Notes under the pieces: generated by a model | Databases searched by the model: none | What the model was told of the DNA's origin: nothing | What the model saw: only the letters and a program-made list of their open reading frames with translations | Shown: positions 17,987 to 38,999 of the stretch, in pieces | Numbering within the stretch: position 1 is the first letter of the stretch | How the letters are laid out: the number at the start of each line of letters is the position of its first letter | Made by a program: the position numbers and the translations under genes | From: Bacteroidales bacterium | GTDB taxonomy: Bacteria > Bacteroidota > Bacteroidia > Bacteroidales > JAIPAP01 | Direction of reading: 5' to 3' | Length of the DNA stretch: 39,335 bases | Assembly: GCA_021740045.1 (NCBI GenBank) | Contig: JAIPAP010000030.1 | Coordinates: forward strand, 1 to 39,335

Positions 17987-18112
17987 AAAAAAGGTGAGAT
18001 TATGAACTTCATCGAAACCTAGAAACCAAAATATCAATACCAGCTGAAGTTCCATCTTATTTGATTCTTTCAGTGGAAGAGAGTACAAATGATTATGAAT
18101 CTCTTAAAAACG

Positions 18113-19036
18113 ATGAAAATGAAAAAAATATTGACATTATTATTGATTATGGCTGGGTTGAGCGCTTTTGCTCAGCAGACATCGGTCTTTGTTAATCCCG
18201 AAGCGAAATGGAACGTTGCAGCTACCTATCCCAATGCCAATCCTCAAAATCCCAATTTTGTCGAAACCTCTACATTGGTATATGGCTATTTGGGAGATAC
18301 TCTTATTAACAATCAACTGTGGTTAAAAATATATTCCACACCGGATTCTGCTTTTTTGGAAAATCATACTTATCTTGGAAATATCCGGGAGGGGAATGAG
18401 CGAATTTTATTCATGAATGCAGAAGCTCAAATTGATACCGTTTATGATTTCAATTTGAGTATAGGTGATTCAGTATTTTATGAATTCGAAACAGGTCAGG
18501 CGCAATACCTGGAAATTCAACATGTAGACAGCATTATTATTAAAGGCGAATACCATAAAAGGTTCCATTTTCAAATTCCCGATTTTCCCCCTTTGGAATT
18601 GGATGAGGTATGGATAGAAGGCCTGGGAAGTGTTCATGGTCCGCTGTTTCCTGCAAATCCACAGTTGTTTTCATCCGAGGTTCCTGATTCCACCAATTTA
18701 ACCTGTTTTGAACTCGAGCAGGCAATGTATTGGAATAATCCCTTTTATGAGCAATGCTATATCAGCATTATTTTATCTGCTCCCAATTTCGCCGGAAATA
18801 GTTTTAAAATCTATCCCAACCCGGTAGAAAAGAGGTTACGAATAGAATTTCAAGATGATAAGGAGGTTAATGGTAGGCTTTATATTTATGATTTTACCGG
18901 AAAAATAGTTTATAGTAGCGTATTGAACAAGGAGAGGTTTCAATATGTGAACACCTCACTTTTAAAGCAAGGGATCTATCTATTGGAGATCAATACTGGA
19001 TCAACACTTTACCGGAACAAGCTTATCAAGAGGTAG
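18113..19036 (+). CDS. T9SS sorting-domain secreted protein
   Basis: The frame is open from 18089, but the signal peptide starts at MKMKKILTLLLIMAGLSAFAQ, so ATG 18113 (or 18119) is the likely start; about 307 residues. The passenger has LGNIREGNERILFM, FNLSIGDSVFYEF and VWIEGLGSVHGPLFPANP, placing it in the same secreted family as the gene at 1546-2505. The C-terminus is a type A sorting domain (FKIYPNPVEKRLRIEF, IYDFTGKIVYSS, LLKQGIYLLEINTGS, ending NKLIKR). It has its own strong promoter at 17955-17986 and stands away from the other T9SS genes. Function unknown; surface exposure is well supported. Confidence 0.85.
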   Translation: MKMKKILTLLLIMAGLSAFAQQTSVFVNPEAKWNVAATYPNANPQNPNFVETSTLVYGYLGDTLINNQLWLKIYSTPDSAFLENHTYLGNIREGNERILFMNAEAQIDTVYDFNLSIGDSVFYEFETGQAQYLEIQHVDSIIIKGEYHKRFHFQIPDFPPLELDEVWIEGLGSVHGPLFPANPQLFSSEVPDSTNLTCFELEQAMYWNNPFYEQCYISIILSAPNFAGNSFKIYPNPVEKRLRIEFQDDKEVNGRLYIYDFTGKIVYSSVLNKERFQYVNTSLLKQGIYLLEINTGSTLYRNKLIKR

Positions 19037-19136: not shown

Positions 19137-20375
19137 TTACGTGGTATAAACCGAATTAAACATCACATAATCATTGGTGATGTCGGAGCCCCAACCCACT
19201 GCCTGGGCGCGGCCTTGATTCATTTCCATCAAAACCCGCAGGTGTGATTCGCGCAGGAGTTTCTTCATGTGATTTCGGTCAAATTCTTTGGGCGTACCTC
19301 TTTCCAATACTTGAATCAGGTAATCTTCGTCGCCAAGGTATAAGTTAACCGATGACATATCGAAATTCACCCCGGCATTTCCGGCTGCCATAACAATACG
19401 TCCCCAATTGGGGTCGCGGCCAAACATGGCGGTTTTTACCAGCAGCGAATCGGAAATGGCTCGTACCAGTTTGCGGGCCACCTTCTCCGATTTGGCTTTG
19501 GTTACCTGGTATTCGATAAACTTGGAAGCGCCCTCACCATCGGAAATGATCAATTTTGCCAAATGGATCATCAATTCCTGAAGGTGGGCTTCAAATATTT
19601 TAAAGTTGGGGTCATTCACCGAAGTGATTTCATCATTTTCGGCCATGCCATTGGCCAGCACTGCCACCATGTCGTTGGTAGAAGTATCGCCATCAACGGT
19701 GATCATGTTGAATGACTTATCAACACAACGCTTAACCGTTTTATCCAGCAACTTCTTCTCAATAGCCACATCGGTAACGATAAACGCCAGCATGGTACCC
19801 ATATTCGGATGGATCATCCCGGAGCCTTTGGCAATGCCGGCCATGCTTACTTTGTCGCCATCCAGGTAAAAGCTTAGATGACCTTCTTTGGCAAAAGTGT
19901 CGGTGGTTAAGATGGCATTGGCGGCAAAGGTGCCGGCTTTTGTAGAAGATGAGAGTTTTACCACGTTTTCCTTGATGCCTTCAACGATATCTTCCGTAGG
20001 GAAAGGCTCACCGATCACGCCGGTTGAAGCCACCAGCACCAGCTCCTTATCGATCTTGAGCTGTTCAGCCAAGGTTTCGGCCATGGCTACAGCGCCGTCA
20101 TAGCCTTGCTGTCCGGTACCGGCATTGGCATTGCCGGCATTGATCACAATGGCTTGTGCACGGTTATCGGCAATATGCTTTTTGCATAGCTTAATGGGTT
20201 CGGCCACCAGATCGTTTTTTGTAAAAACCGCAGAAGCATTGCAGGGCTTTTCGGAATAGATAATGGCCATATCGCGACGCATGGATTTAATACCGGTGTG
20301 TGCGCCCCAACATTCAATCCCTTTTACATCGGTGATGTTATTGACAATATTGTTGCTGTTTACTTGTGTTTTCAT
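19137..20375 (-). CDS. argJ: glutamate N-acetyltransferase ArgJ
   Basis: Ornithine acetyltransferase that moves the acetyl group from N-acetylornithine to glutamate; bifunctional forms also make N-acetylglutamate from acetyl-CoA. The self-cleavage site is visible in [15 protein letters not shown]194 should become the N-terminal nucleophile of the beta chain, with G193 in place of the common alanine. [19 protein letters not shown] and the C-terminal [18 protein letters not shown] are family hallmarks. Length (412 residues) is normal. It is the last gene of the argB-argD-argC-argJ operon, 21 bases after argC. Its presence implies the acetylated cyclic pathway rather than the succinylated route known in some Bacteroidetes. 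Confidence 0.95.
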
Positions 20376-20396
20376 CTGTTTGATTTTTGGTTTTAA

Positions 20397-21428
20397 CTAA
20401 GGTCTTAACGGAATGATATCCAAGCCCAATCCTTCATCCATTCCAAGCATCAGGTTCATGTTCTGAATGGCCTGCCCTGAGGCTCCCCTCACCAAATTAT
20501 CGATGGCGGAGAATGCCATAATGTTCCCGGTACGTTCATCGAATAACGGAAAAATATCAATGTAATTGGTGCCGCGGATATTTTTAATCTCCGGATTCGT
20601 GGTTGAAAGCCGTATAAACGGCTCGTTGCTATAATGCTGATCATATAAATTGTTCAAATCTCCCTGGGTGATCTGTTTGTTGGGTCTGGCATACACCGAA
20701 GTCAGTATGCCACGATCAACCGGCAGCAGGTGAGGGGTGAACTGAACCGTGGTTTCCGTTTCCCCATATTGCGATAAAATTTCCTGAATTTCAATGGTAT
20801 GCCGGTGTGTTTTAACGCCATAGGCCTTAAAATTCTCATTCACATTGGAATAATGTGTAACCACCTTGGCTTTTACCCCGGCGCCGGTTACCCCGGTTTT
20901 GGAATCGAATATGAGATGCTTCGGATCAACCAGTTTTTCTTTAACCAAAGGAGCGGCAGCTACGATGGCCCCTGTTGGGAAACAGCCCGGGTTTGCTACC
21001 AATTTGGCCTTTTTGATGGTTTTTCTGAAAAGCTCAGGTATGCCATATACAGCCTGAGCAAAACCTTCTGGGTAACTATGGGGCTTATCGTACCAAGCTT
21101 CATAAACGTTCTTGGAGGAGAGCCGAAAATCACCCGAGAGATCCACTATCTTAATGCTCTCACCAGCCAGTTCTTTTACATAATCCATTGAAACCCCATG
21201 TGGTAAGGCGAGGAAAACCAAATCAGGATTCACTTCTTTGATTTGCTTGGCCGATTTAAGCGTAACATCTACTATTCCCTCGAATTGCGGATGAATGTCC
21301 GACAAGCGCTTCCCTTCGTAAGTTTCACTGGTTATTATCGATATTTCCACCTCGGGATGATGGTGAAGCAAACGTACCAGCTCGGAACCGGTGTAGCCTG
21401 TTGCACCTATGATGCCTATTTTATGCAT
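20397..21428 (-). CDS. argC: N-acetyl-gamma-glutamyl-phosphate reductase
   Basis: NADPH-dependent reductase of N-acetylglutamyl phosphate to the semialdehyde, third step of arginine synthesis. The N-terminal Rossmann motif IGIIGATGYTGSELVRLL (residues 4-21) binds NADPH. The catalytic cysteine C149 lies in ANPGCFPTG, and HRHTIEI and LLPVDRGILTSVYA are also family motifs. Length is 343 residues. The start overlaps the end of argD by eight bases (ATGCATAA), indicating translational coupling. Confidence 0.96.
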   Translation of the reverse strand: MHKIGIIGATGYTGSELVRLLHHHPEVEISIITSETYEGKRLSDIHPQFEGIVDVTLKSAKQIKEVNPDLVFLALPHGVSMDYVKELAGESIKIVDLSGDFRLSSKNVYEAWYDKPHSYPEGFAQAVYGIPELFRKTIKKAKLVANPGCFPTGAIVAAAPLVKEKLVDPKHLIFDSKTGVTGAGVKAKVVTHYSNVNENFKAYGVKTHRHTIEIQEILSQYGETETTVQFTPHLLPVDRGILTSVYARPNKQITQGDLNNLYDQHYSNEPFIRLSTTNPEIKNIRGTNYIDIFPLFDERTGNIMAFSAIDNLVRGASGQAIQNMNLMLGMDEGLGLDIIPLRP

Positions 21429-22611
21429 TTTCTTTTATCTTTTTTGCTGATTTAAACATGATTTCAATAACCTTCTCCATATCATCGTATGAAATGTTTA
21501 ACGGTGGTACGATGCGTAATACGTTTTCGGCTGTTGCATTGGCCAATATGCCATTATGCATCATTTCCTCCACCAAAGGCTTGGTTTCCATGTCGAACTC
21601 AAAGCCAAGCATCAGCCCAAGCCCCCTGATCTCTTTTATTCCAATAGATCCAGGATTTTTTTCGCGGACTTTTTTGATGAACCATTCACCTTTTTCCTTA
21701 GCCTGATCAATAAGGCCCTCTTCTTCGATGGCTTCGATAGCTGCCAATGATGCGGCAGTAGCCAAAGCATTTCCGCCAAAAGTGGTTCCATGATCACCGG
21801 GTTTCATAATGCGGGCCACCTTTTCTTTGGTCAGTATTGCACTGATGGGAACTCCGGAACCCAGCGCTTTGGCAGAGGTGAGGATATCGGGCTGAACACC
21901 AAAACCTTCCTTGGCAAAAAAATGACCGGTCCGTCCGATTCCACACTGGATCTCATCAAAGATCAAAAGGATGTTATGCTCATTGCACAATTTCCGCAGT
22001 TGTTTGATGAACTCCACTTCGGCTACCACAACACCTCCTTCGCCCTGAACAGGCTCCACGATGATCGCGGCCGTTTGAGCGGAAACTGTTTCGCGGACAG
22101 CCTCAATATTATTAAAAGGTAAAATCTTAAATCCCGTGGGAATGGGTTCGAACCCTTCCTGCATGGATGATTTTCCGGTGGCTATGGTAGCGAGGGTCCG
22201 TCCGTGGAAGCATCCTTCAAAAGATATGACTTCCCCACCTCGATTGTGGGTGTGAGCGTATTTCCGGGCAATTTTGATGGCCCCTTCATTGGCTTCGGCA
22301 CCGCTGTTGCCAAAAAACACCCTTGGCAGGCCCGATAGTTTTGCCAGTTTCTCTGATAATTTGGCCTGTGGTTCGGTCAGGTAAAAGTTCGACACATGGA
22401 TCAACTTTTCTGCCTGGTCTTTTATGGCCTTTACAACTTTTGGATGACTGTGACCCAAGCTGTTCACCGCAATACCCGCCATAGCATCGATGTATTCCTT
22501 GCCATTGCTGTCCCACACCCTGGAGCCTTTTCCTTTTACAATGGTTAAAGGAAACCGCTTAAAGGTGGGTAAGTAATGCTTTTCGTCAATTTTTTGATAA
22601 TCAGGATTCAT
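21421..22611 (-). CDS. argD: acetylornithine aminotransferase
   Basis: PLP-dependent class III aminotransferase forming N-acetylornithine from the semialdehyde. GNSGAEANEGAIKIARKYA (101-119) binds the cofactor phosphate, FDEIQCGIGRTG contains the cofactor-contacting aspartate, and K248 in SAKALGSGVPIS should form the Schiff base. Length (396 residues) matches ArgD. It could also serve as succinyl-diaminopimelate aminotransferase, as many ArgD enzymes do, but the operon fixes its main role in arginine synthesis. It starts two bases after the argB stop and overlaps argC. Confidence 0.95.
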   Translation of the reverse strand: MNPDYQKIDEKHYLPTFKRFPLTIVKGKGSRVWDSNGKEYIDAMAGIAVNSLGHSHPKVVKAIKDQAEKLIHVSNFYLTEPQAKLSEKLAKLSGLPRVFFGNSGAEANEGAIKIARKYAHTHNRGGEVISFEGCFHGRTLATIATGKSSMQEGFEPIPTGFKILPFNNIEAVRETVSAQTAAIIVEPVQGEGGVVVAEVEFIKQLRKLCNEHNILLIFDEIQCGIGRTGHFFAKEGFGVQPDILTSAKALGSGVPISAILTKEKVARIMKPGDHGTTFGGNALATAASLAAIEAIEEEGLIDQAKEKGEWFIKKVREKNPGSIGIKEIRGLGLMLGFEFDMETKPLVEEMMHNGILANATAENVLRIVPPLNISYDDMEKVIEIMFKSAKKIKENA

Positions 22612-22613
22612 GG

Positions 22614-23441
22614 TTATAAAGTTATTTTTGTTGCAAATGAATACTGTTTCTTTTCAATTACTTCAGTTAAAAGCTCCGGCTTGGTACCGTTTGTAATGAT
22701 GGCGCTTTTTGCACCCAGTTCCAGGGCTACCTTGCAGGCTTCTGTTTTGGGGATCATGCCCCCTTTGATGGTTGTTCCCGTTAAATCATCGAGTTTCTGC
22801 AATGTGATGGATTGGATCAATGATTTTTCATCGTCCGGGTTTTTCATTAAACCATCCACATCCGTTAATAAAACAAACTGTGAAGCATTGAGCTTGCCGG
22901 CCAAAAAGCCGGCAAACATATCGGCGTTCACATTATAATCAATTCCTTCCTTGCTCCAGGCTACCGAGGTAATGACGGGTAAATAACCGTTTTCGAGTAA
23001 GGTAAAGATCAATGAAGTATCTACTTCCACCACATCGCCCACCTGTCCGATGTCGGTCTTTTTTCCGGTTTCATCTACAAAGTAACGCTTAATGGCCTGG
23101 GCTATTTTTCCATCCTTACCGGAAAGGCCCACAGCCTTCCCGCCCAGCTTATTGATCAAACGGATAAGCCGGCTGTTGACCTCACCTTTAAGCGCCATTT
23201 CAATATATTTCATGGCCTCAGGTGTGGTTTTTCGATGGCCCCCCACAAACTCGGTATCGATACCGGCACGCTCAAGGTTTTCCTTTATAAAAGGGCCGCC
23301 CCCATGCACCAGCACTATCCTGAATCCCTTATCTGAAAGCTGTATAACCTTCTTTAAGAGGTGTTCCGTAAGCTGATCATTAAGCATGGCATTGCCGCCA
23401 TATTTTATTAAAACCAAGTCTCCCTCGTCATTTCTAACCAT
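22614..23441 (-). CDS. argB: acetylglutamate kinase
   Basis: Phosphorylates N-acetylglutamate with ATP, the committed step of the cyclic pathway. The amino-acid kinase motifs are LIKYGGNAM (K13), VLVHGGGPFI, VGGHRKTTPEAM and the late GGMIPKTEACKVALELGA. There is no long N-terminal extension helix of the arginine-inhibited hexameric type, so feedback inhibition cannot be assumed. First gene of the operon. The start is an ATG at 23441 with no clear SD, divergent from the lipoprotein gene, so the 141 bases between them should hold both promoters. I found no exact promoter consensus or ArgR-type box there. Confidence 0.94.
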   Translation of the reverse strand: MVRNDEGDLVLIKYGGNAMLNDQLTEHLLKKVIQLSDKGFRIVLVHGGGPFIKENLERAGIDTEFVGGHRKTTPEAMKYIEMALKGEVNSRLIRLINKLGGKAVGLSGKDGKIAQAIKRYFVDETGKKTDIGQVGDVVEVDTSLIFTLLENGYLPVITSVAWSKEGIDYNVNADMFAGFLAGKLNASQFVLLTDVDGLMKNPDDEKSLIQSITLQKLDDLTGTTIKGGMIPKTEACKVALELGAKSAIITNGTKPELLTEVIEKKQYSFATKITL

Positions 23442-30223: not shown

Positions 30224-32494
30224 TTATTTAATGAACTTTTTTCGATGATCGATCTCTTCATTAAACACTTTAATGAAGTAAACGCCTGGCTTGAGATTGC
30301 TTACGTCTATACGATTGGTACGCTCATCGGCGTATTCCTCTGATATGAGCAATTCACCTTTGGTGTTATAGATTTCGACATTAGCTGAATTCACTTCATC
30401 ATTAAGCTCAAGGTTCAGGCGGTTTCCTTTAACCGGGTTGGGGTAAAGCTTAAAGCTACCATCCGCTACAGGATCATCGCTTAAACCAAGGGATTGGCTA
30501 CTATGCACGCTAAATGGACTCAACGAAGTGAGTGATTCAGCAGTCAATGCAAAGGTGCCTCTTGTGGTTGACTGAGCCGCACCAGAAGCAGCCACATTCC
30601 ATGTACCGTTCATATAGTGTGAAATGTAGCATTCAGTACGGTCGAATCCGTTAACTTCTGCCTGGCTCATCCATTCAAGCTGTGCGTCAAGCTCAATATT
30701 CGATGACAATTCGGAGGTAATGTAATAGGTGTGGTCTACAACAGCTTCGGTTTCGCTTATATCGCCTCCACCATAGCCGTTGGCATACACATTATTCTCA
30801 GCGCTTACACCGAACTTACCGCTTGCCGCTCCACTTGCTTGTGCAAGCGTTACAGGGCAATATGACAGATCGGTACCTACCGGATATATTACTGCAGAAC
30901 CTCCTGCATCAACATTCATCATCAAGCTTCCTTCGCCAGAGGTCATTACAAAGTTGTTTTCGCTTTGACCACTTATGCTGGCATTGGCCATAATGTGCAG
31001 ATCGTTACTTTGGATGCTTAGCTTACCTTCATCGAGCATCAATTCAGATGAAACATAAGCTTCGGAGCCAAGCTTCACATAACCATCGCCACCTATATCG
31101 ATGGTAAGTTCATCAAAGGTGTTACCATCCGAATTAAAGGTAAGTTCACCTGATACAGATGAATCGGTATTTACCGTAATATCGGCATCTTCATCCGATT
31201 CAATGGAGCCGTTTACATCAGCGGCAATATCACCTTTGATCATCAGGTGATTGCTGTTCAGGGTCAATGAACCGTTCTCGAGGGTAAGGTTACCCATAAC
31301 TTCTACTTCGGAGCCAAGTTCTACATGCCCCTCATTACCAATGTTTACAGTTAGGTTATTCACAGTTTCGGCATCCGACTTAAACTTGAGTTCGCCCGAA
31401 ACACTTGAACCCGTATTAACCGTAATATCGGCATCTTCATCCGATTCAATGGAACCGTTTACATCAGCAGCAATATCACCTTCAATCATCAGGTGGTTAC
31501 CATCCAGCATGCATGAACCGTTTTGAAGATTAAGGTATGCTTTAACGCTAACGTCTGAGTCCAGTTTAACATGTCCTTCATTATCAATATCCACTTCCAG
31601 GGTATCCACTTCTTCCGAACCGGATTCGAATCGTAGCTCGCCACTTACCGTTGCAGCAGTCATGACCTTAATACCTGATTCATCATCACCTTTAATGGTA
31701 CCGCTACCACTGGCTGCAATATCTCCACTGATCATCAGGTCATAGCCATTCAACGAAAGCTTACCCTGTTCCAGTGTAAGGGTTCCGTTCACCATTGCAT
31801 CGGATTGAAGTTTAGCTTCAGCAGATGATGAATTTAACATCACCTTAAGGTCGGTAAGTCCCGAACCGGAAACAACAACGCCCAGATCGGAATCTTCTCC
31901 TACCACAATTACTGAATAAGCATTTGCACCGATAAATGCTCCTCCTTCGAGGGAGAAGTCACCCGCTTCGACTTTAACTGTGCTCTCGCTTTGTAGCTCA
32001 AGTGAACCGCCTGTATCCATTATAAGATTACCGGCCATCAGGTAAAGGGTGTCCTTAACCTCAATAGTGGATTTAACCAATAGGTCAACTTTAGAGTTGA
32101 TGTAATTTCCACATACCAGTTCACCGGTAAACAGCGTAATGGCTGTTTCACCATAGGTGATGGCTTTAACATCAATGTTTCCGCTACCACCCAGGGTTCC
32201 TTTGGTCATAACCAAGCTGTTCGCTGAGCCTTCCAGCGATCCGTTTACATCCAACAAGGTAAATGTCCCGTTGAATTCTACATCAGTGTCCATAGTAACC
32301 ATAATATCACTCGGGATAACCACGGTATCGGTAGTTACTGTCGTTGGTGGAGCTGTGCCACCCCAGGTAGCTGAACTAGTCCAGTTACCGGAAACAACAG
32401 CTACAAAAGTATCGCCCTTAACATTGGCTGCAAAACTTAAAAATATTGCAAGCAATGCTATAATTTTCGTTAATTGTAATTTTGTACGTTTCAT
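30224..32494 (-). CDS. repeat-rich T9SS surface protein
   Basis: About 756 residues starting at ATG 32494 (MKRTKLQLTKIIALLAIFLS); an ATG at 32506 adds four residues. After the signal peptide comes a short domain with VSGNWTSSATWGGTAPP, common at the head of Bacteroidetes beta-helix proteins. Residues about 218-535 contain four copies of an 82-residue repeat (NEGHVxLxSxV, LTLENGSLTLNSNHLMI, GDIAADVNGSIESDEDADIT, VSGELxFxS), highly acidic and probably a right-handed beta-solenoid. The C-terminus is a T9SS sorting domain (FKLYPNPVKGNRLNLEL, IYNTKGELLISEE, LKPGVYFIKVFNEEIDHRKKFIK). A surface adhesin or structural role is likely. It converges on the ABC genes. Confidence 0.85.
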   Translation of the reverse strand: MKRTKLQLTKIIALLAIFLSFAANVKGDTFVAVVSGNWTSSATWGGTAPPTTVTTDTVVIPSDIMVTMDTDVEFNGTFTLLDVNGSLEGSANSLVMTKGTLGGSGNIDVKAITYGETAITLFTGELVCGNYINSKVDLLVKSTIEVKDTLYLMAGNLIMDTGGSLELQSESTVKVEAGDFSLEGGAFIGANAYSVIVVGEDSDLGVVVSGSGLTDLKVMLNSSSAEAKLQSDAMVNGTLTLEQGKLSLNGYDLMISGDIAASGSGTIKGDDESGIKVMTAATVSGELRFESGSEEVDTLEVDIDNEGHVKLDSDVSVKAYLNLQNGSCMLDGNHLMIEGDIAADVNGSIESDEDADITVNTGSSVSGELKFKSDAETVNNLTVNIGNEGHVELGSEVEVMGNLTLENGSLTLNSNHLMIKGDIAADVNGSIESDEDADITVNTDSSVSGELTFNSDGNTFDELTIDIGGDGYVKLGSEAYVSSELMLDEGKLSIQSNDLHIMANASISGQSENNFVMTSGEGSLMMNVDAGGSAVIYPVGTDLSYCPVTLAQASGAASGKFGVSAENNVYANGYGGGDISETEAVVDHTYYITSELSSNIELDAQLEWMSQAEVNGFDRTECYISHYMNGTWNVAASGAAQSTTRGTFALTAESLTSLSPFSVHSSQSLGLSDDPVADGSFKLYPNPVKGNRLNLELNDEVNSANVEIYNTKGELLISEEYADERTNRIDVSNLKPGVYFIKVFNEEIDHRKKFIK
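30902..31855 (-). repeat. 246-base intragenic tandem repeat
   Basis: Four units, each 82 codons. R2 (31361-31606) and R3 (31115-31360) are close at DNA level; for example accgtaatatcggcatcttc followed by atccgattcaatgga recurs near 31179 and 31419. R1 is more diverged and R4 is decayed. Such identity suggests recent duplication or gene conversion and a risk of collapse in assembly. Confidence 0.8.
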
Positions 32495-32945
32495 AAGCCT
32501 AATCATTTTTAGTTTCTACAATCTATTTTCTTACTAACCAATTAACCCCATAATTTTAATTTATGGAATCAATCATCTTGCTTCATGATGAGTAGTGAAA
32601 AATAAATACCGACCAGGTTTGCCAACGGGAGTTATGAAGATACTTTCTAAATAATAGAGAATGAATTTCAATGATTTGATAAATTGGGTAGAAAACCGGG
32701 TGTCTAATGTTACTATTTGGAATTATTTTAAATTGTTGAGATTGGTCAACAAATGTTCAACAAAAATACACAATCAATAAACCACCGATATTCCTTGTTC
32801 TGATCAAGCGCAGAAACTGAAGTATAAGATTGAACAGCTCAATATTTCTATAAAAGATTTAGGAACAATAAAATAAGGAGCATAGAAGCAGCTAATGGTA
32901 TGTCTGCATTCTATACTCCTTTTTATCGTAAATCCTCTTGCCAGC
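32495..32945. other. intergenic region between two T9SS genes
   Basis: These 451 bases carry no gene. They hold the hairpin behind the large T9SS gene (listed) and AT-rich DNA that should contain the promoter of the smaller one. A minus-strand TATTTTTG (32761-32768) fits TAnnTTTG but is some 260 bases from the start and lacks a -33 box. Confidence 0.5.
32866..32920 (-). terminator. hairpin after the 2017-residue gene
   Basis: The arms near 32876-32891 (aggagcatagaagcag) and 32904-32920 (ctgcattctatactcct) pair with one bulge and a mismatch. On the minus strand the stem is followed by a T-rich run (ttattttattg). On the plus strand it is followed by TTTT, so it may act in both directions. Confidence 0.6.
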
Positions 32946-35900
32946 CTATTGCACCACTAGCTTTGCTCTAATGCGTGAGCCGCCATTTTCAATTTCCAGG
33001 ATATAAGTACCGGGATTGAAAAGGGAAACATCCAATTCATACCTCTGTGTATTAAGCCCATCTTCGAAGATAAGGGCCTTGCCGCTGGCATGATATAGTT
33101 TTACGCTATTCATGGATTTCGATGAACTGATGTAAACCTTATCACTTGCAGGATTTGGGAAGATGTTGACCTGGTGATCCTTTTCTTCCTGTCCCGTTAT
33201 GCTCATACTAACCTTCGCAATGCTGTATATGCCGTCTCCTTCAGGGTAAGTATTGCCGGTGTAAGCATTATGTATGGTTTTTAAACGGTGGTTTAGCTCA
33301 ATAAGCTTTCCGTTGCGCTCCATAGCAAGCTTGATGGGGTGGCCAGGTTGATAACCCTTTCCATCAATCAGGGTGCTGAAAGCCGGTAACTCGTTGGTTT
33401 CCCAGTTGCCTGATGTGATCTCAACAGAGCCAACCACTTTGTCTCCCTCTAAGGCCAGGATTCTATCACCGGCTTCAATACCCTTGCCCGGGTCAATGTA
33501 AATGGAATACACCGGATCGGCCGGGTTGCCGATGGAGTTAGCTGATGGCAGAGATTTGCCGGGTTGGTAACCTTTAGTGTTTCCGGGATAGACCAGTTCT
33601 CCGCTACCGATCATGCGCACCAGGTAGCCTTCACCCGGCAGGGCATCGCCAATATTGTTGATCCAGTTGGGTCCCACTTTTTGAATGGAGTTCCCGTTGT
33701 CATTGCGGATCAGTTCCAGGCTGTCGCCGATAATGGTTTCAAAGGCATTCATGGCATTCATGCCGGTTTTCGGAAGATAACCGGCAAAGCTGTAACCATA
33801 CTCCAGGTTGATAGGCGTTGTGGGAGCTATCACTTCACCCTCCATAATCAGCGTATCCGGGGCATCCATATGGAAAAGGTACCCTTGGGTGGACACCCAG
33901 TCACCGATGTTGTTCACCCAATTGGGCCCGATCTTTTGCAAGGTGTTGCCGCTTTGCGATCTTACCATATCCAGGTTATCCAGCACATCCGGCAGCAGGT
34001 CCATAAGGTCGGGATTGAAAGGAACAATGTAGGAGGAAACAAAGCTGTAGTTGTCTTCCAGTGGAATGGTTTGGTTGCCATAGGGAATTTCGCATAGGAC
34101 ATTGGAAGGCTCGGATTCTTCCCCGCTCTCAAATATCTGGGTAACATAATAACAATACTCCTCGCCGCCTTCCAGGTTTTCATCGGTGTAGGAAATGGCT
34201 TCTATTCCTTCAGCAATTTGGGTCCCGTCGGCATAAAAAACATTGTACGTGGGGTCATACTGGCTTGCGCTGAATTCCAGTTCAATGATGCTATACGGCC
34301 CGTCTGACGGCGGGAAAACCGGTTCCACCCAGGCATCGCCATTGGGATCGAGGAAGTTGAGATTGAATTGGCTTACTTCCATCATTTCACTTTCATCCCA
34401 GCCTTTGAATGAAGCTGCATTGCCCGGTGTGTAGCCGTCGCCGGTGGTGAGTTCACTAAAAGCGGGCATGTCGTTTTCGTATTGATTTTCCGGTGTGCAC
34501 ACCTGGGTTAATGTAAAGGCGCCCACCATTAAGTCACCATCGAAAACAGCCACCTCATCACCGGCCACCATATCAGCATCATCGATGCTTGCATGGGCCA
34601 GGAAAATAGTCCATATGGGGCCACCGGTACCACCCACAAAATCAAAATGATTGATGCGTGAATTTTCCAGGTAAGGTTCCCAAACCAAGGTCAAGGCCTG
34701 TACTTCACGTTCGATGTGCGTAAGTTCAGGGGCAACAATTTCTGTGGGCGTGGCACATTCAATGTTGGAGGAGTCGGATAGCGTGCCATTCTCCATCATT
34801 TGCCTGATGTAATAGCAGTATTCCTGGCCTCCTTCCAGGCCGGTATCGGTATACATGGTTCCTTGTAAATTTTCAGCCACCAGGGTTCCATCTGCATAAT
34901 ACACGTTGAAAGTAGGTTCATAAGGGTCACCACCAAACGAAAGACCTACCAAGCTATACTGCCCATCACCTTCCGGAAAAACAGGCTGTGTCCAGGCGTC
35001 GCCATATGGATCAGCATAATTGACTCCAATGCTGTTGTATATACTCCCTGTTTCTTCCTGGTAAGCTTTAAATATTACCGGATTGCCGGGTGTGTAACCA
35101 TCTCCATTTATCAAGGTGCTCCAGGCAAGAAGATCATTTTCAAATTGATTTTCGGGGGTGCATATTTGATCCAGTGTGAAGCCGCCTACCAAAAGGTTGC
35201 CATCAAACACACCAACTTCATCACCCGGTATCATATCCTCTTCATTGATAAGGGCTTCGTAGATGTAAATTGTCCATACCGGATCGCCGCCCTGTCCATA
35301 TACTTCCCAATAACCTACTCGTTTACCGCCAATGGGTTGCCAGGTTAACGCAACTGAACCGGGACCGGGTGTTGCCGATAAAAGCGTTGGAGCAGGATTA
35401 ATCGGCTCAAGTGCAAAATCCAAAACAGTAGTTTCACCCGGTAATATCTCCACACCCGTTTGGGTTTGTATCTCATACGAATAACTGCCTACCGCAGTTA
35501 CAGCGTAGGTTCCGATGGGAACATCCTCTATCATATAACTACCATCCTCCCCGGTAATGGCAGTCATTTGCAGACTATCGATCGTAACCTGCACGCCTTC
35601 GAGTGGTTCATTGGTTATGGCATCGGTAACTGTGCCCATCAATGTTCCAAAAGGTGGAGGAAGAACGGCACACTCAATATTGGACGAATCGGATTCGGTG
35701 CCGTTTTCCAATAGTTGGGTAATATAATAGCAGTGCTCTCCATACGGATATTCAATACTATCGGTATAAGTGGTTCCATACACATTTTCGGCTATCAGGC
35801 CTTCATCCATCTTATAAATATTGAAAGACGGTTCGTAAGAAAGATCAGTAAAGTCAAGCTCCACTATACTGTATGTGCCGTCGCCCTCCGGGAAATAAGG

Positions 35901-38900
35901 TTCGGTCCAGGCATCTCCGTATGGATCGAGATAGGTCACATTCACACCTTCATAAACCGTATATTCGCTGTCATCAAAGCCCTTAAAGATCACCTCATGG
36001 CCGGGTGTGTAGCCGGGACCGGTGGTCAGTTCAGTCCAGGCGACCAGGTCATTTTCCATTTGGTTTTCATGGGTGCAAACCTGATCAAGGCAAAAATATC
36101 CCACCAGCACATCATCATCAAAACAACCCAGTTCATCGCCTATCACCATATCTTCTTCATTAATGGTTGCACCGGCAATAAAAATCGTGTAGGATGGTGG
36201 TGCCCCGTTGGGATGCACATACCAGTAGCCTGTGCGGCCTCCTCCAATGGGTTCCCAGCTAAGGTTAAACACACCCACCCCGGGTTCTATTGGAAAAAGC
36301 GTAGGCGCCATGTATTCCGGCTCAAGGGTGAAATTAACTGTGATCGTGTCTCCTGCCTCTACCTCGACTTCGGGTACTAAGCCGGGATCATAACCGTCAG
36401 CTTCACACCAAAAATCCCAAATACCGGGGGGAGCAAAATCTATAATATATTCACCGTTTTCATCCGTTGATACAGCAAATGCTGCTCCGACGATACCCAC
36501 AAGCGCACCGGCAATAGGCTCGGAAGTGACGGAATCGGTAACTGTGCCGACAATTATTCCTGGTTGCTGGGGCAGGGGTGTAGCACATGCAACACCTGAG
36601 GGATTGGATATCATCCCGTTCCCGAGATTTTGCTTTACATAATAGCAGTATTCGGTTCCTGGTGTCAACTGAGTATCGGTATAGGTACTGCCTTCAACAG
36701 CTTCTTCCACCAGTGTTCCGTCTTCATAATAAATATTGAAGCTGGGAATATAATCCGCTATGTACTCCATAGTTACCAGGCTGTATTCGCCGTCATCTTC
36801 GGGGAAGATGGGTTCGGTCCAGGCATCACCATAGGGATCGAGGAAGTTGATCTCATATTCGGCCACTTCAATGCCGTTGCTTTGATCCCAGGCTTTAAAC
36901 GTTGCCTGATTGCCGGGTGTATAACCCGGTTCTCCGGGTCCTATCATATCTACAGCCAAAAGTGTATTTTCAAACTGATTTTCGGGTGTGCAGACCTGTG
37001 TCAGATCAAAGGCTCCCACAAGCAGATCGCCGTCGAACACCCCAAGTTCATCGCCTTCAACCATATCCTCCCCATTAATCGATGCATGGGCAATAAATAT
37101 CGACCAGGATTCATAACCTCCATTACCATATTCAAATTCCCAATGATCCAAATCACCGGCACCAATGGCTTGCCAGGTCAGTGTGATTTCCTCTGTGCCG
37201 GGAACGGCTTCAAGTAAGGAAGGAGACTTTACGGCTAAAGCAAAATCGACAACAGTGGTATCGCCCACATTGATGCCCATGTCTTGCGTTGATGATACAA
37301 ATCCATGATAGGAGGCTTCGATTTGATAAATGCCGGTTTCGAGGCTGTCGATCATATAGTGCCCGCTGGAATCGGTGGTGGTGATAAAATCTTCCTCCAG
37401 TATTTCCACGGTTGCCCCTTCAACCGGCCCGGAAGTTTCTTCATTGGTAACAGTGCCTTCAACAACGCCATACGTCGGCGGTAATACCGTGGCACACTCG
37501 ATATTGGAAGAACCGGATTCCATGCCGTTTTCAAGGATTTGGGTTACATAGTAACAATACGCTGTTCCCGGATCAAGGCCAGTGTCGGTGTAGCTTGTCC
37601 CTTCAACCGGGCCTTCTATCAAGGTTCCGTCTTCATAATATACATTAAAGGTCGGGGTATAATCTTTTGTAAATTCAAGGGAGACCAGGCTGTATTGACC
37701 GTCGCCCTCAGGGAATAAAGCTTCCGTCCAGGCATCACCATAGGGATCGCTAAAGGAAATTTCAAATTCATCGGCTTCAATCCCCAGGCTTTTATCATAA
37801 GCCCTGAAAAAAACCGGATTTCCGGGCGTATATCCTCCTATGCCCTGGGGAGGATCCAAGGCCCCATAAGCCATTAATTCGTTGTCGAAGGCATTTTCCG
37901 GGGTGCACACCTGGGTTAGTGTGAGGGTTCCCACTAATAGATCTTCGTCGAATATCCCGATTTGATCCCCGGCAACCATGTCGGCACCATTCATTGTAGC
38001 TTCTTCAAAATAGATAGTCCAATAGTTATAATTGCCGCCATATTCGAATTGATAATAGTTTTCGATGCCTGCATTTACCGGCTGCCAGTTCAGGGTTACC
38101 TGCTCCGGGCCTGGAATGGCTTCCAGCAATTCAGGGGATTTGGGTTCCATGAATGCATCCATAATCGTTGTTTGTCCGGCAATAATTTCTATAGAAGAGG
38201 GTGGGGGAGAAATGAAAAAAGGATGAGATAAACTCACCGAATAAATTCCCGGGGGGATGCTATCGATCTCAAAGCTACCAGCAGCGTCGGTAGTGTCGGT
38301 CAGGTTTGCATATCCAATATCCACGATGACCCCTTCGATGGGTTCATTGTTTTCGATGTTCTTTACGGTTCCGGCTAAGGTTCCGGTAGGATTGCCGGAG
38401 GTGAATGCCAGGCTCACTATGCTATATTGACCATCGCCAGGTGGAAAGAAGGGATCATCCCAGGCATCGCCGTATGGATTGTAGTAGGTTGCTTGAAATT
38501 CGACATACTCCGTGGCTTCACTGTCGTCCCAAGCCCTGAAGCTTACCGGGTTACCCTCGGAGTAACCGGGTTCTCCGTTGCATTTTACCGTCAATGCCCA
38601 GAGGTCGTTTTCAAATTGATTCTCGGGGGTGCAAACCTGGGTTAGATCAAATTCTCCCACCAATACATCACCGTCAAAAACACCAATCTCATCATCGGCT
38701 ACCAAGTCGTTACCGTTAATAGTTGCCCCGGAAATGAATATACCCCACATGGTGCAGGCACAATTGCAATAACCTTCATAAAAATGGTCATTGCGATTGC
38801 CTTGCGTGGGTTCCCAATACAGCTTAAGGTTTTCCTTGTTGAAGCCTGCTTCTTGTATCGGGTCTCCATTCGGGGATAACAATTCAGGAAGTTCCTGTTT

Positions 38901-38999
38901 TTGTGATTTTTGTTGATGGTTGGTTTCTGTGTTGACCTGTCCAAAAAGCATGGAGGTTCCCCACATGACCAGTGCGAAAAGTAATGCTGTTGTTCTCAT
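32946..38999 (-). CDS. giant modular T9SS surface protein
   Basis: A 2017-residue protein with a signal peptide (MRTTALLFALVMWGTSMLFG). Residues 84-1577 hold six copies of a module of about 115 residues (about 84-200, 327-443, 632-746, 936-1051, 1242-1355, 1462-1577). The motifs are INGEDMVxGDExGVFDGD, LxQVCTPENQFEN, GYTPGN and DPYGDAWTEPxFPEGDGQYS. A decayed seventh lies at 1829-1933. In copies 2-6 the module sits between the first half (VTLNWQP) and the second half (FNVYYEDGTL...TYTDTGL...YCYYVTQ...SNIECA) of a fibronectin-III-like domain. Carboxypeptidase-regulatory-like domains lie at about 207-285, 510-590, 813-893 and 1117-1198. Two NIGDW-type repeats (1645-1712, 1732-1798) precede the sorting domain (VNIFPNPASDKVYI to the end). 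Likely a large cell-surface adhesin or binding protein. Confidence 0.88.
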   Translation of the reverse strand: MRTTALLFALVMWGTSMLFGQVNTETNHQQKSQKQELPELLSPNGDPIQEAGFNKENLKLYWEPTQGNRNDHFYEGYCNCACTMWGIFISGATINGNDLVADDEIGVFDGDVLVGEFDLTQVCTPENQFENDLWALTVKCNGEPGYSEGNPVSFRAWDDSEATEYVEFQATYYNPYGDAWDDPFFPPGDGQYSIVSLAFTSGNPTGTLAGTVKNIENNEPIEGVIVDIGYANLTDTTDAAGSFEIDSIPPGIYSVSLSHPFFISPPPSSIEIIAGQTTIMDAFMEPKSPELLEAIPGPEQVTLNWQPVNAGIENYYQFEYGGNYNYWTIYFEEATMNGADMVAGDQIGIFDEDLLVGTLTLTQVCTPENAFDNELMAYGALDPPQGIGGYTPGNPVFFRAYDKSLGIEADEFEISFSDPYGDAWTEALFPEGDGQYSLVSLEFTKDYTPTFNVYYEDGTLIEGPVEGTSYTDTGLDPGTAYCYYVTQILENGMESGSSNIECATVLPPTYGVVEGTVTNEETSGPVEGATVEILEEDFITTTDSSGHYMIDSLETGIYQIEASYHGFVSSTQDMGINVGDTTVVDFALAVKSPSLLEAVPGTEEITLTWQAIGAGDLDHWEFEYGNGGYESWSIFIAHASINGEDMVEGDELGVFDGDLLVGAFDLTQVCTPENQFENTLLAVDMIGPGEPGYTPGNQATFKAWDQSNGIEVAEYEINFLDPYGDAWTEPIFPEDDGEYSLVTMEYIADYIPSFNIYYEDGTLVEEAVEGSTYTDTQLTPGTEYCYYVKQNLGNGMISNPSGVACATPLPQQPGIIVGTVTDSVTSEPIAGALVGIVGAAFAVSTDENGEYIIDFAPPGIWDFWCEADGYDPGLVPEVEVEAGDTITVNFTLEPEYMAPTLFPIEPGVGVFNLSWEPIGGGRTGYWYVHPNGAPPSYTIFIAGATINEEDMVIGDELGCFDDDVLVGYFCLDQVCTHENQMENDLVAWTELTTGPGYTPGHEVIFKGFDDSEYTVYEGVNVTYLDPYGDAWTEPYFPEGDGTYSIVELDFTDLSYEPSFNIYKMDEGLIAENVYGTTYTDSIEYPYGEHCYYITQLLENGTESDSSNIECAVLPPPFGTLMGTVTDAITNEPLEGVQVTIDSLQMTAITGEDGSYMIEDVPIGTYAVTAVGSYSYEIQTQTGVEILPGETTVLDFALEPINPAPTLLSATPGPGSVALTWQPIGGKRVGYWEVYGQGGDPVWTIYIYEALINEEDMIPGDEVGVFDGNLLVGGFTLDQICTPENQFENDLLAWSTLINGDGYTPGNPVIFKAYQEETGSIYNSIGVNYADPYGDAWTQPVFPEGDGQYSLVGLSFGGDPYEPTFNVYYADGTLVAENLQGTMYTDTGLEGGQEYCYYIRQMMENGTLSDSSNIECATPTEIVAPELTHIEREVQALTLVWEPYLENSRINHFDFVGGTGGPIWTIFLAHASIDDADMVAGDEVAVFDGDLMVGAFTLTQVCTPENQYENDMPAFSELTTGDGYTPGNAASFKGWDESEMMEVSQFNLNFLDPNGDAWVEPVFPPSDGPYSIIELEFSASQYDPTYNVFYADGTQIAEGIEAISYTDENLEGGEEYCYYVTQIFESGEESEPSNVLCEIPYGNQTIPLEDNYSFVSSYIVPFNPDLMDLLPDVLDNLDMVRSQSGNTLQKIGPNWVNNIGDWVSTQGYLFHMDAPDTLIMEGEVIAPTTPINLEYGYSFAGYLPKTGMNAMNAFETIIGDSLELIRNDNGNSIQKVGPNWINNIGDALPGEGYLVRMIGSGELVYPGNTKGYQPGKSLPSANSIGNPADPVYSIYIDPGKGIEAGDRILALEGDKVVGSVEITSGNWETNELPAFSTLIDGKGYQPGHPIKLAMERNGKLIELNHRLKTIHNAYTGNTYPEGDGIYSIAKVSMSITGQEEKDHQVNIFPNPASDKVYISSSKSMNSVKLYHASGKALIFEDGLNTQRYELDVSLFNPGTYILEIENGGSRIRAKLVVQ
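34269..38750 (-). repeat. 915-base intragenic super-repeat
   Basis: Equivalent points in module copies 2, 3, 4 and 5 are spaced 305, 304 and 306 residues apart (about 915 bases), with a shorter 220-residue step to copy 6, which lacks the carboxypeptidase-like domain. DNA words such as ttttcgggggtgca and caggcatcaccatagggatc recur in diverged form at each copy. Confidence 0.8.

Follow-up and report, generated by a model that had tools for sequence, protein, structure and literature searches.

The window analysed here is a stretch of 39,335 nucleotides from a Bacteroidales bacterium (GCA_021740045.1, contig JAIPAP010000030.1; this assembly is called the own genome below), and our subject is an open reading frame on its reverse strand (32946–38999) that specifies a predicted large secreted surface protein of 2017 amino acids. 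Modelling supports an arrangement in which a discrete module is nested in the loop that joins strand B to strand C of fibronectin type III (FN3)-like host domains, the flanks of which would close into a single FN3 sandwich. Sequence comparison further shows this B-C loop apparently acting as a docking slot, which in the relative MAG15 (records JAEINX..., also G435) is found empty or occupied by a Cleaved_Adhesin-type domain.

The six long copies of the module carry a Q[VI]CT motif starting at residues 121, 363, 668, 973, 1278 and 1499. A sequence-only reading of the window had seen the opening strands of FN3 parted from the rest by the module in copies 2 to 6, and both the unit alignment and a host profile agree with it, giving the order FN3 first half, module and FN3 second half in units 2–6. 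The same reading described a 305-residue super-repeat with a carboxypeptidase-like linker. The period holds for copies 2–5 (three spacings of 305), the other spacings being 242 and 221, and the linker is present after units 1–4 and missing from units 5 and 6. In unit 5, FN3 strands A-B occupy residues 1202–1225 (35325–35396; this and all further features of the protein lie on the reverse strand), module copy 5 residues 1228–1358 (34926–35318), and strands C-G residues 1360–1418 (34746–34922).

Residues 1203–1419 were modelled from a 23-row alignment comprising 10 whole units and 13 free modules drawn from the window and further loci, and the model had a mean pLDDT (predicted local distance difference test) of 92.0. 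With a second structural aligner, all 50 of the rows shown aligned 76–85 residues over the model range 1 to 214–217, and each match was to one continuous FN3 per chain. The best was 5z06_A (Z 12.6, root mean square deviation, rmsd, 1.8 over 80 residues), while the 92-residue FN3 of 7jgt gave Z 11.7 over 78 residues. Since a match of some 80 residues that spans model positions 1 to 214–217 can be supplied only by the flanks (approximately 25 and 63 residues), the two halves would form one sandwich, as had been suspected from the sequence. The host thus shares the fold of PF00041 by structural comparison (Z up to 12.6), and differs from that family in being interrupted by about 135 residues between B and C and in having two conserved cysteines in its second half. 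The second halves from both genomes have a mean column identity of 73% (10 rows), both cysteines being invariant.

An uninterrupted form of the host occurs naturally. The MAG15 protein L146, a 727-amino-acid frame, contains a filled host, an intact empty host and the start of a further filled host, in that order. The empty host has 4 residues at the site, compared with 137 in the preceding one, and its alignment with 4u3h, a consensus FN3, runs across the insertion point (E 0.0078). This empty domain beside filled ones bears out the FN3 insertion suggested earlier. It also bears on the proposal that the flanks are separate half-domains, or pair with those of neighbouring units and not with each other. 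In its favour, the second half of unit 5 runs straight into the first half of unit 6, and unit 1 and the unit of genome G467 each have a single half. Against this stand the single-chain model with its FN3 matches, the linker domains that lie between the halves of neighbouring units in units 2–4, and the empty host, which rules out pairing between neighbours. We regard this proposal as very improbable.

Several observations weigh against a single FN3 host. The unit 5 model reached a predicted template modelling score (pTM) of only 0.68, and in plain Foldseek the top places went to FN3 pairs, at rmsd 17–26 and a TM score near 0.25; this ranking was unusable as a superposition. The FN3 match accordingly rests on the second aligner and the natural forms. 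In the Pfam scan, fn3 reached 20.1 bits for the whole protein versus a cut-off of 25, the empty MAG15 host matched 0 families, and certain first halves matched their profile weakly (E up to 0.09). Because the Pfam score is below threshold, we call the host FN3-like by fold and do not file it as PF00041.

Other forms of the slot were found. The deletion form of the own genome (C125, 1039-amino-acid frame, approximately residues 505–607) keeps the last strand of the module and that of genome G447 its first residues, and L074 has 33 residues at the insertion site. Free modules also exist. One MAG15 protein carries four head to tail (469–596, 601–729, 734–862 and 868–996), and these share edges with the nested modules, while in G013, a genome of the same order, modules alternate with whole FN3s without nesting. 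The slot has other occupants as well. In a MAG15 frame of 3885 amino acids, the module fills six hosts, and two others contain inserts of 161–163 residues. The insert that was scanned matches Cleaved_Adhesin, PF07675 (E 2.9e-9, 37.6 bits against 21.4), and inspection of the second found it nearly identical. The hosts with a Cleaved_Adhesin-type insert are 73–84% identical to module-bearing ones. In L174 (G726:C19) an unrelated insert of 133 residues (576–708) separates the halves of a host-like FN3. Two proteins of the own genome, L057 (C105) and L151 (C147), have an FN3 subtype ('GYNVYRDG') with a further domain (WIHWDDGTN...), which has no Pfam match and which, as judged by reading the sequence, would lie in the corresponding place.

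Host second halves were counted as strong at E under 1e-8. There were 35, comprising 14 in the own genome and 21 in MAG15, and 29 of them hold the module (11 and 18, respectively). The other six consist of two Cleaved_Adhesin-type hosts, one empty host, one deletion, one short loop and one truncated remnant. Module matches numbered 45 in the own genome (E up to 0.01) and 138 in the 4.2-Mb genome of MAG15 (E up to 1e-4), the latter being an unusually large expansion of one domain. Counting the own genome in each tally, matches to the module occur in 3 of 41 relatives, in 16 of 393 genomes of the order (one of which, G492, appears to be MAG15, having identical contig coordinates), and in 12 of 395 sampled genomes of the phylum using the close profile or 33 of 395 using a broad profile that takes in distant relatives. 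At most 10–11 candidates per genome were scored in the order and phylum surveys, and matches per genome are lower bounds. The host was sought in seven further module-bearing genomes of the order and found in three (E up to 1e-6). In G726 the nested unit is complete, in G467 only module and second half are present, and G447 has the deletion form. The single match in MAG14 (L106) lies on a contig of 3117 bases and is very close to a MAG15 protein, so that it may reflect a binning error.

The history of the nesting was addressed with trees. A first tree had 49 rows, namely 46 long modules and three from G013. In the best tree the nested modules do not form one clade; a single clade was not rejected on the full set (p 0.074) and was rejected in a quick tree from which five long-branch rows had been removed (p 0.0076). 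A second tree of 58 rows left out all short modules, the three G013 rows and the long-branch rows L055_65 and L062_561. Its best topology requires six changes between nested and free labels, at least three of them imposed by well supported branches. Here, the 11 nested modules of the own genome and window copy 1 form one group (98/99), and six nested modules have as their sister (100/98) a free one from MAG15. The trees thus suggest that modules have moved between the slot and free tandem arrays on several occasions. Perhaps the nested state instead arose once, with gene conversion of modules within each genome accounting for their failure to form a clade, an alternative to which we give somewhat less than even weight. 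It would agree with the likeness of the second halves between genomes described above, with the complete nested unit in G726, which belongs to another family of the order, and with the 49-row test; the quick tree, the forced changes and the free sister module argue the other way. All hosts except the truncated remnant, which lacks a first half, entered the host tree (34 of 35). Hosts share on average 50.3% identity inside the own genome and 66.6% inside MAG15, and 51.6% across the two genomes; for nested modules the values are, in the same order, 51.6%, 56.1% and 47.7%. The trees and these identities fit repeated insertion, swapping or gene conversion alike.

A more general reading can be offered tentatively, namely that the FN3 B-C loop in proteins of the Bacteroidales type IX secretion system (T9SS) is a general cassette slot in which unrelated binding domains are exchanged, with the module representing a new fold family. 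The tenants would then conceivably be the module, Cleaved_Adhesin, the domain carried by the own genome's other FN3 subtype and the unrelated insert of 133 residues in G726. With similar reserve, the route might be recombination among paralogous copies in one genome, the adhesins diversifying through exchange of nested domains.

The module itself has clear edges and is a domain without a name, widespread among secreted proteins of the Bacteroidota. The sequence-only reading recognized no named family, and the scans concur, there being no Pfam-A or NCBIfam family above cut-off for the module, nor for its distant relatives (nine sequences against Pfam and four against NCBIfam). PF07675 matched neither the seven window modules (E up to 10) nor a set of 24 modules (E up to 1). 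PDZ_2 (E 0.0038), Imm6 (E 0.0029) and OmpL47 (E 0.0058) each matched a single member and were taken as chance. The structure 6xi3 was likewise rejected as a sequence relative, the match (E 0.0035 over 36 columns) having no stretch that passed by itself and being absent with a broader profile. Among the titles and abstract openings of the literature we recognized no description of the module or its nesting.

That reading had assigned the module some 115 residues. A discrete module is indeed present, and its size is approximately 130 amino acids because free copies elsewhere begin about 13 residues earlier ('HFxFxGG'). The acidic motifs GDExGVFDGD and DPYGDAW, held to be invariant, proved not to be strictly so. 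Copy 2 has GDQ and FDED, copy 4 FDDD and copy 5 FDGN; NPYGDAW is found in copy 1 and DPNGDAW in copy 6, and DPYGDAW is missing from copy 7. Across 22 aligned close modules the invariant residues are D34, D40, V45, G46, T55, N58, N62, G75, Y76, G79, P105, G107, A109, F115, P116, G120, Y122 and S123, with D or N preceding P105 and P105-G107 conserved. In a 16-row alignment that includes distant relatives only G46, G75 and G79 are invariant, and D34 and F39 nearly so. Since the GD....F turn is nearly common to these relatives and the DPYGDAW stretch is not, the turn is old and DPYGDAW belongs to the close family. The older acidic turn may be structural, and for the conserved turn such a role is as likely as a functional one.

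It had also been suggested that these motifs form a site for metal or ligand. The invariance of D34 and D40, the conserved P105-G107 with its preceding D/N, and the near-invariance of D34 in the distant set favour such a site; the lack of DPYGDAW in the aligned distant relatives and short copy 7, together with the differences at several acidic positions among the window copies, count against it, and we think binding of metal or ligand at such a site doubtful.

The cysteine noted earlier in QVCTPEN is kept in all six long copies (residues 123, 365, 670, 975, 1280 and 1501). Among the long modules, a pattern search finds this cysteine in 25 of the 29 nested ones and 19 of the 31 free ones, window copy 1 being counted as free, and a second cysteine in K-C-W/Y in 2 of 29 and 20 of 31, respectively. 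As the two do not strictly co-occur, we claim no disulfide pair.

Modelled alone (132 amino acids of copy 6, 22-row alignment), the module is predicted, with pLDDT 93.3 and pTM 0.87, to be mostly beta, with eight strands and one short helix. Foldseek with this model against the PDB gave nothing under E 0.07, and VIA-align 2 on the 1000 best PDB candidates gave Z at most 5.9. The want of a confident PDB match for a predicted model does not prove the fold to be new. Transthyretin-like or prealbumin-like sandwiches are a frequent kind among the weak matches (transthyretin rows, Z 4.2–4.7), which also include the PepT2 extracellular domain (Z 5.6). At Z of 5.9 or less, the likeness to transthyretin may be a mere common arrangement. 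In a viral library the model weakly matched a crAss-like phage protein (E 5e-3), a marine virus protein of 136 amino acids (E 0.029, TM 0.52) and several baculovirus enhancins (E 0.029–0.47).

The remaining parts of the protein are as follows. In unit 1 a first-half-like FN3 stretch (residues 50–69, 38793–38852), found in the unit alignment and missed by the FN3a profile, precedes module copy 1 (70–202, 38394–38792), which is followed directly by linker 1 (207–285, 38145–38381) without a second half. Unit 2 comprises strands A-B (288–310, 38070–38138), nested copy 2 (313–446, 37662–38063) and strands C-G (447–505, 37485–37661), followed by linker 2 (511–591, 37227–37469; best PF13620 stretch 513–588). 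Unit 3 has the corresponding parts at 592–614 (37158–37226), 617–749 (36753–37151) and 750–808 (36576–36752), with linker 3 at 815–896 (36312–36557), and unit 4 at 897–920 (36240–36311), 923–1054 (35838–36233) and 1055–1113 (35661–35837), with linker 4 at 1119–1201 (35397–35645). Those of unit 6, which like unit 5 has no such linker, lie at 1422–1445 (34665–34736), 1448–1579 (34263–34658) and 1581–1639 (34083–34259). First halves were placed with the host profile, nested modules with the unit alignment (copies 2–4 also with the host profile) and second halves with the host alignment and profile. The linkers are members of CarboxypepD_reg (PF13620; 193 bits against a cut-off of 32.3, four stretches in the protein), ordinary domains lying outside the nested unit.

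Beyond unit 6 there is an unnamed double repeat (1642–1807, 33579–34076) with the consensus 'NYSFVSSY...VGPNW[VI]NNIGD...EGYL...', which recurs approximately 40 times in the own genome; the region 33579–34073 had no Pfam or NCBIfam match. Elsewhere in the phylum, a stretch related to it follows distant modules. Module copy 7 (1829–1935, 33195–33515), which the unit alignment and module search identify as a shorter form, is free of any surrounding FN3. The C-terminus (1946–2016, 32952–33164) is a T9SS type A sorting tail, containing PF18962 Por_Secre_tail (47.2 bits against 27) and TIGR04183 (38.4 bits against 23, NCBIfam) domains. Such tails have an established role in export, and the protein is thus exported by T9SS. 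Double repeat, short module and tail recur as a C-terminal block in 19 proteins of the own genome, the window protein and 18 others (L055–L070), and in 3 of the 19 the short module lies more than 200 residues after the double repeat. Two more contig-end fragments have the short module and tail.

Taken as a whole, the protein is probably best explained as T9SS cargo in which FN3-like beads follow one another in a chain; five of the beads would carry the autonomous, mostly beta module in the slot, with the CarboxypepD_reg domains after units 1–4 as spacers. From the model, the beads and CarboxypepD_reg domains would form the chain and the nested modules would project outwards. The module would then be a binding domain displayed by FN3, as in the gingipain/HagA adhesins, and the protein may serve attachment to a polymer, to particles or to other cells. 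Because the slot is shared with Cleaved_Adhesin, adhesion appears by analogy to be the likeliest function. Two points count against it: the fold searches of the PDB gave no structural relative that points to adhesion by the module itself, and the short module beside the sorting tail suggests another role. The module could instead be structural or export-related: its older position would be the one next to double repeat and sorting tail, and inside FN3 it would only lengthen or stiffen the bead chain. The position of the short form between repeat and tail in the 19 proteins, its occurrence together with the tail on the two fragments at contig ends, and the double-repeat-like stretch that distant relatives outside the order also adjoin are consistent with this. 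The long modules count against it, as they occur away from the tail in tandem runs of up to four and share a slot with an adhesin domain. We consider such a structural or export role, the main rival to adhesion, unlikely.

The nearest known system is the HagA/gingipain haemagglutinin region of Porphyromonas gingivalis, where repeated FN3s of a T9SS protein likewise enclose another domain. According to a figure legend, Cleaved_Adhesin domains of HagA are nested within FN3 domains (PMC5542538), and Cleaved_Adhesin proteins of P. gingivalis have been linked to haemagglutination and to the binding of haem (PMC11500903). The window protein has both a domain enclosed in repeated FN3s and the C-terminal sorting domain of T9SS type A cargo, and the link to HagA is drawn closer by the MAG15 host, which holds a PF07675-type domain in two places. 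The window protein differs from HagA, known here from the legend, in that Pfam has no match for its enclosed domain and the fold searches gave no confident one.

Elsewhere in the window, two further proteins with T9SS sorting tails are encoded at 30224–32506 (reverse strand) and 18089–19036 (forward strand). The 760-amino-acid one contains internal repeats, and no Pfam domain is clear in it apart from the tail. Arginine-type amino-acid biosynthesis genes lie at 19137–23441 (reverse strand), namely those for an ArgJ family protein, a semialdehyde dehydrogenase, a class-III aminotransferase and an amino acid kinase.

FN3 nesting is already known in kind; what is new are a single FN3 slot whose tenants are interchangeable and a widespread domain that has no name. 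In nature the loop occurs empty, filled, with a deletion and with other inserts, which indicates that one FN3 loop takes whole domains. A rule of how adhesins evolve can thereby be put to the test, and a naturally used FN3 insertion site is a pointer for protein designers.

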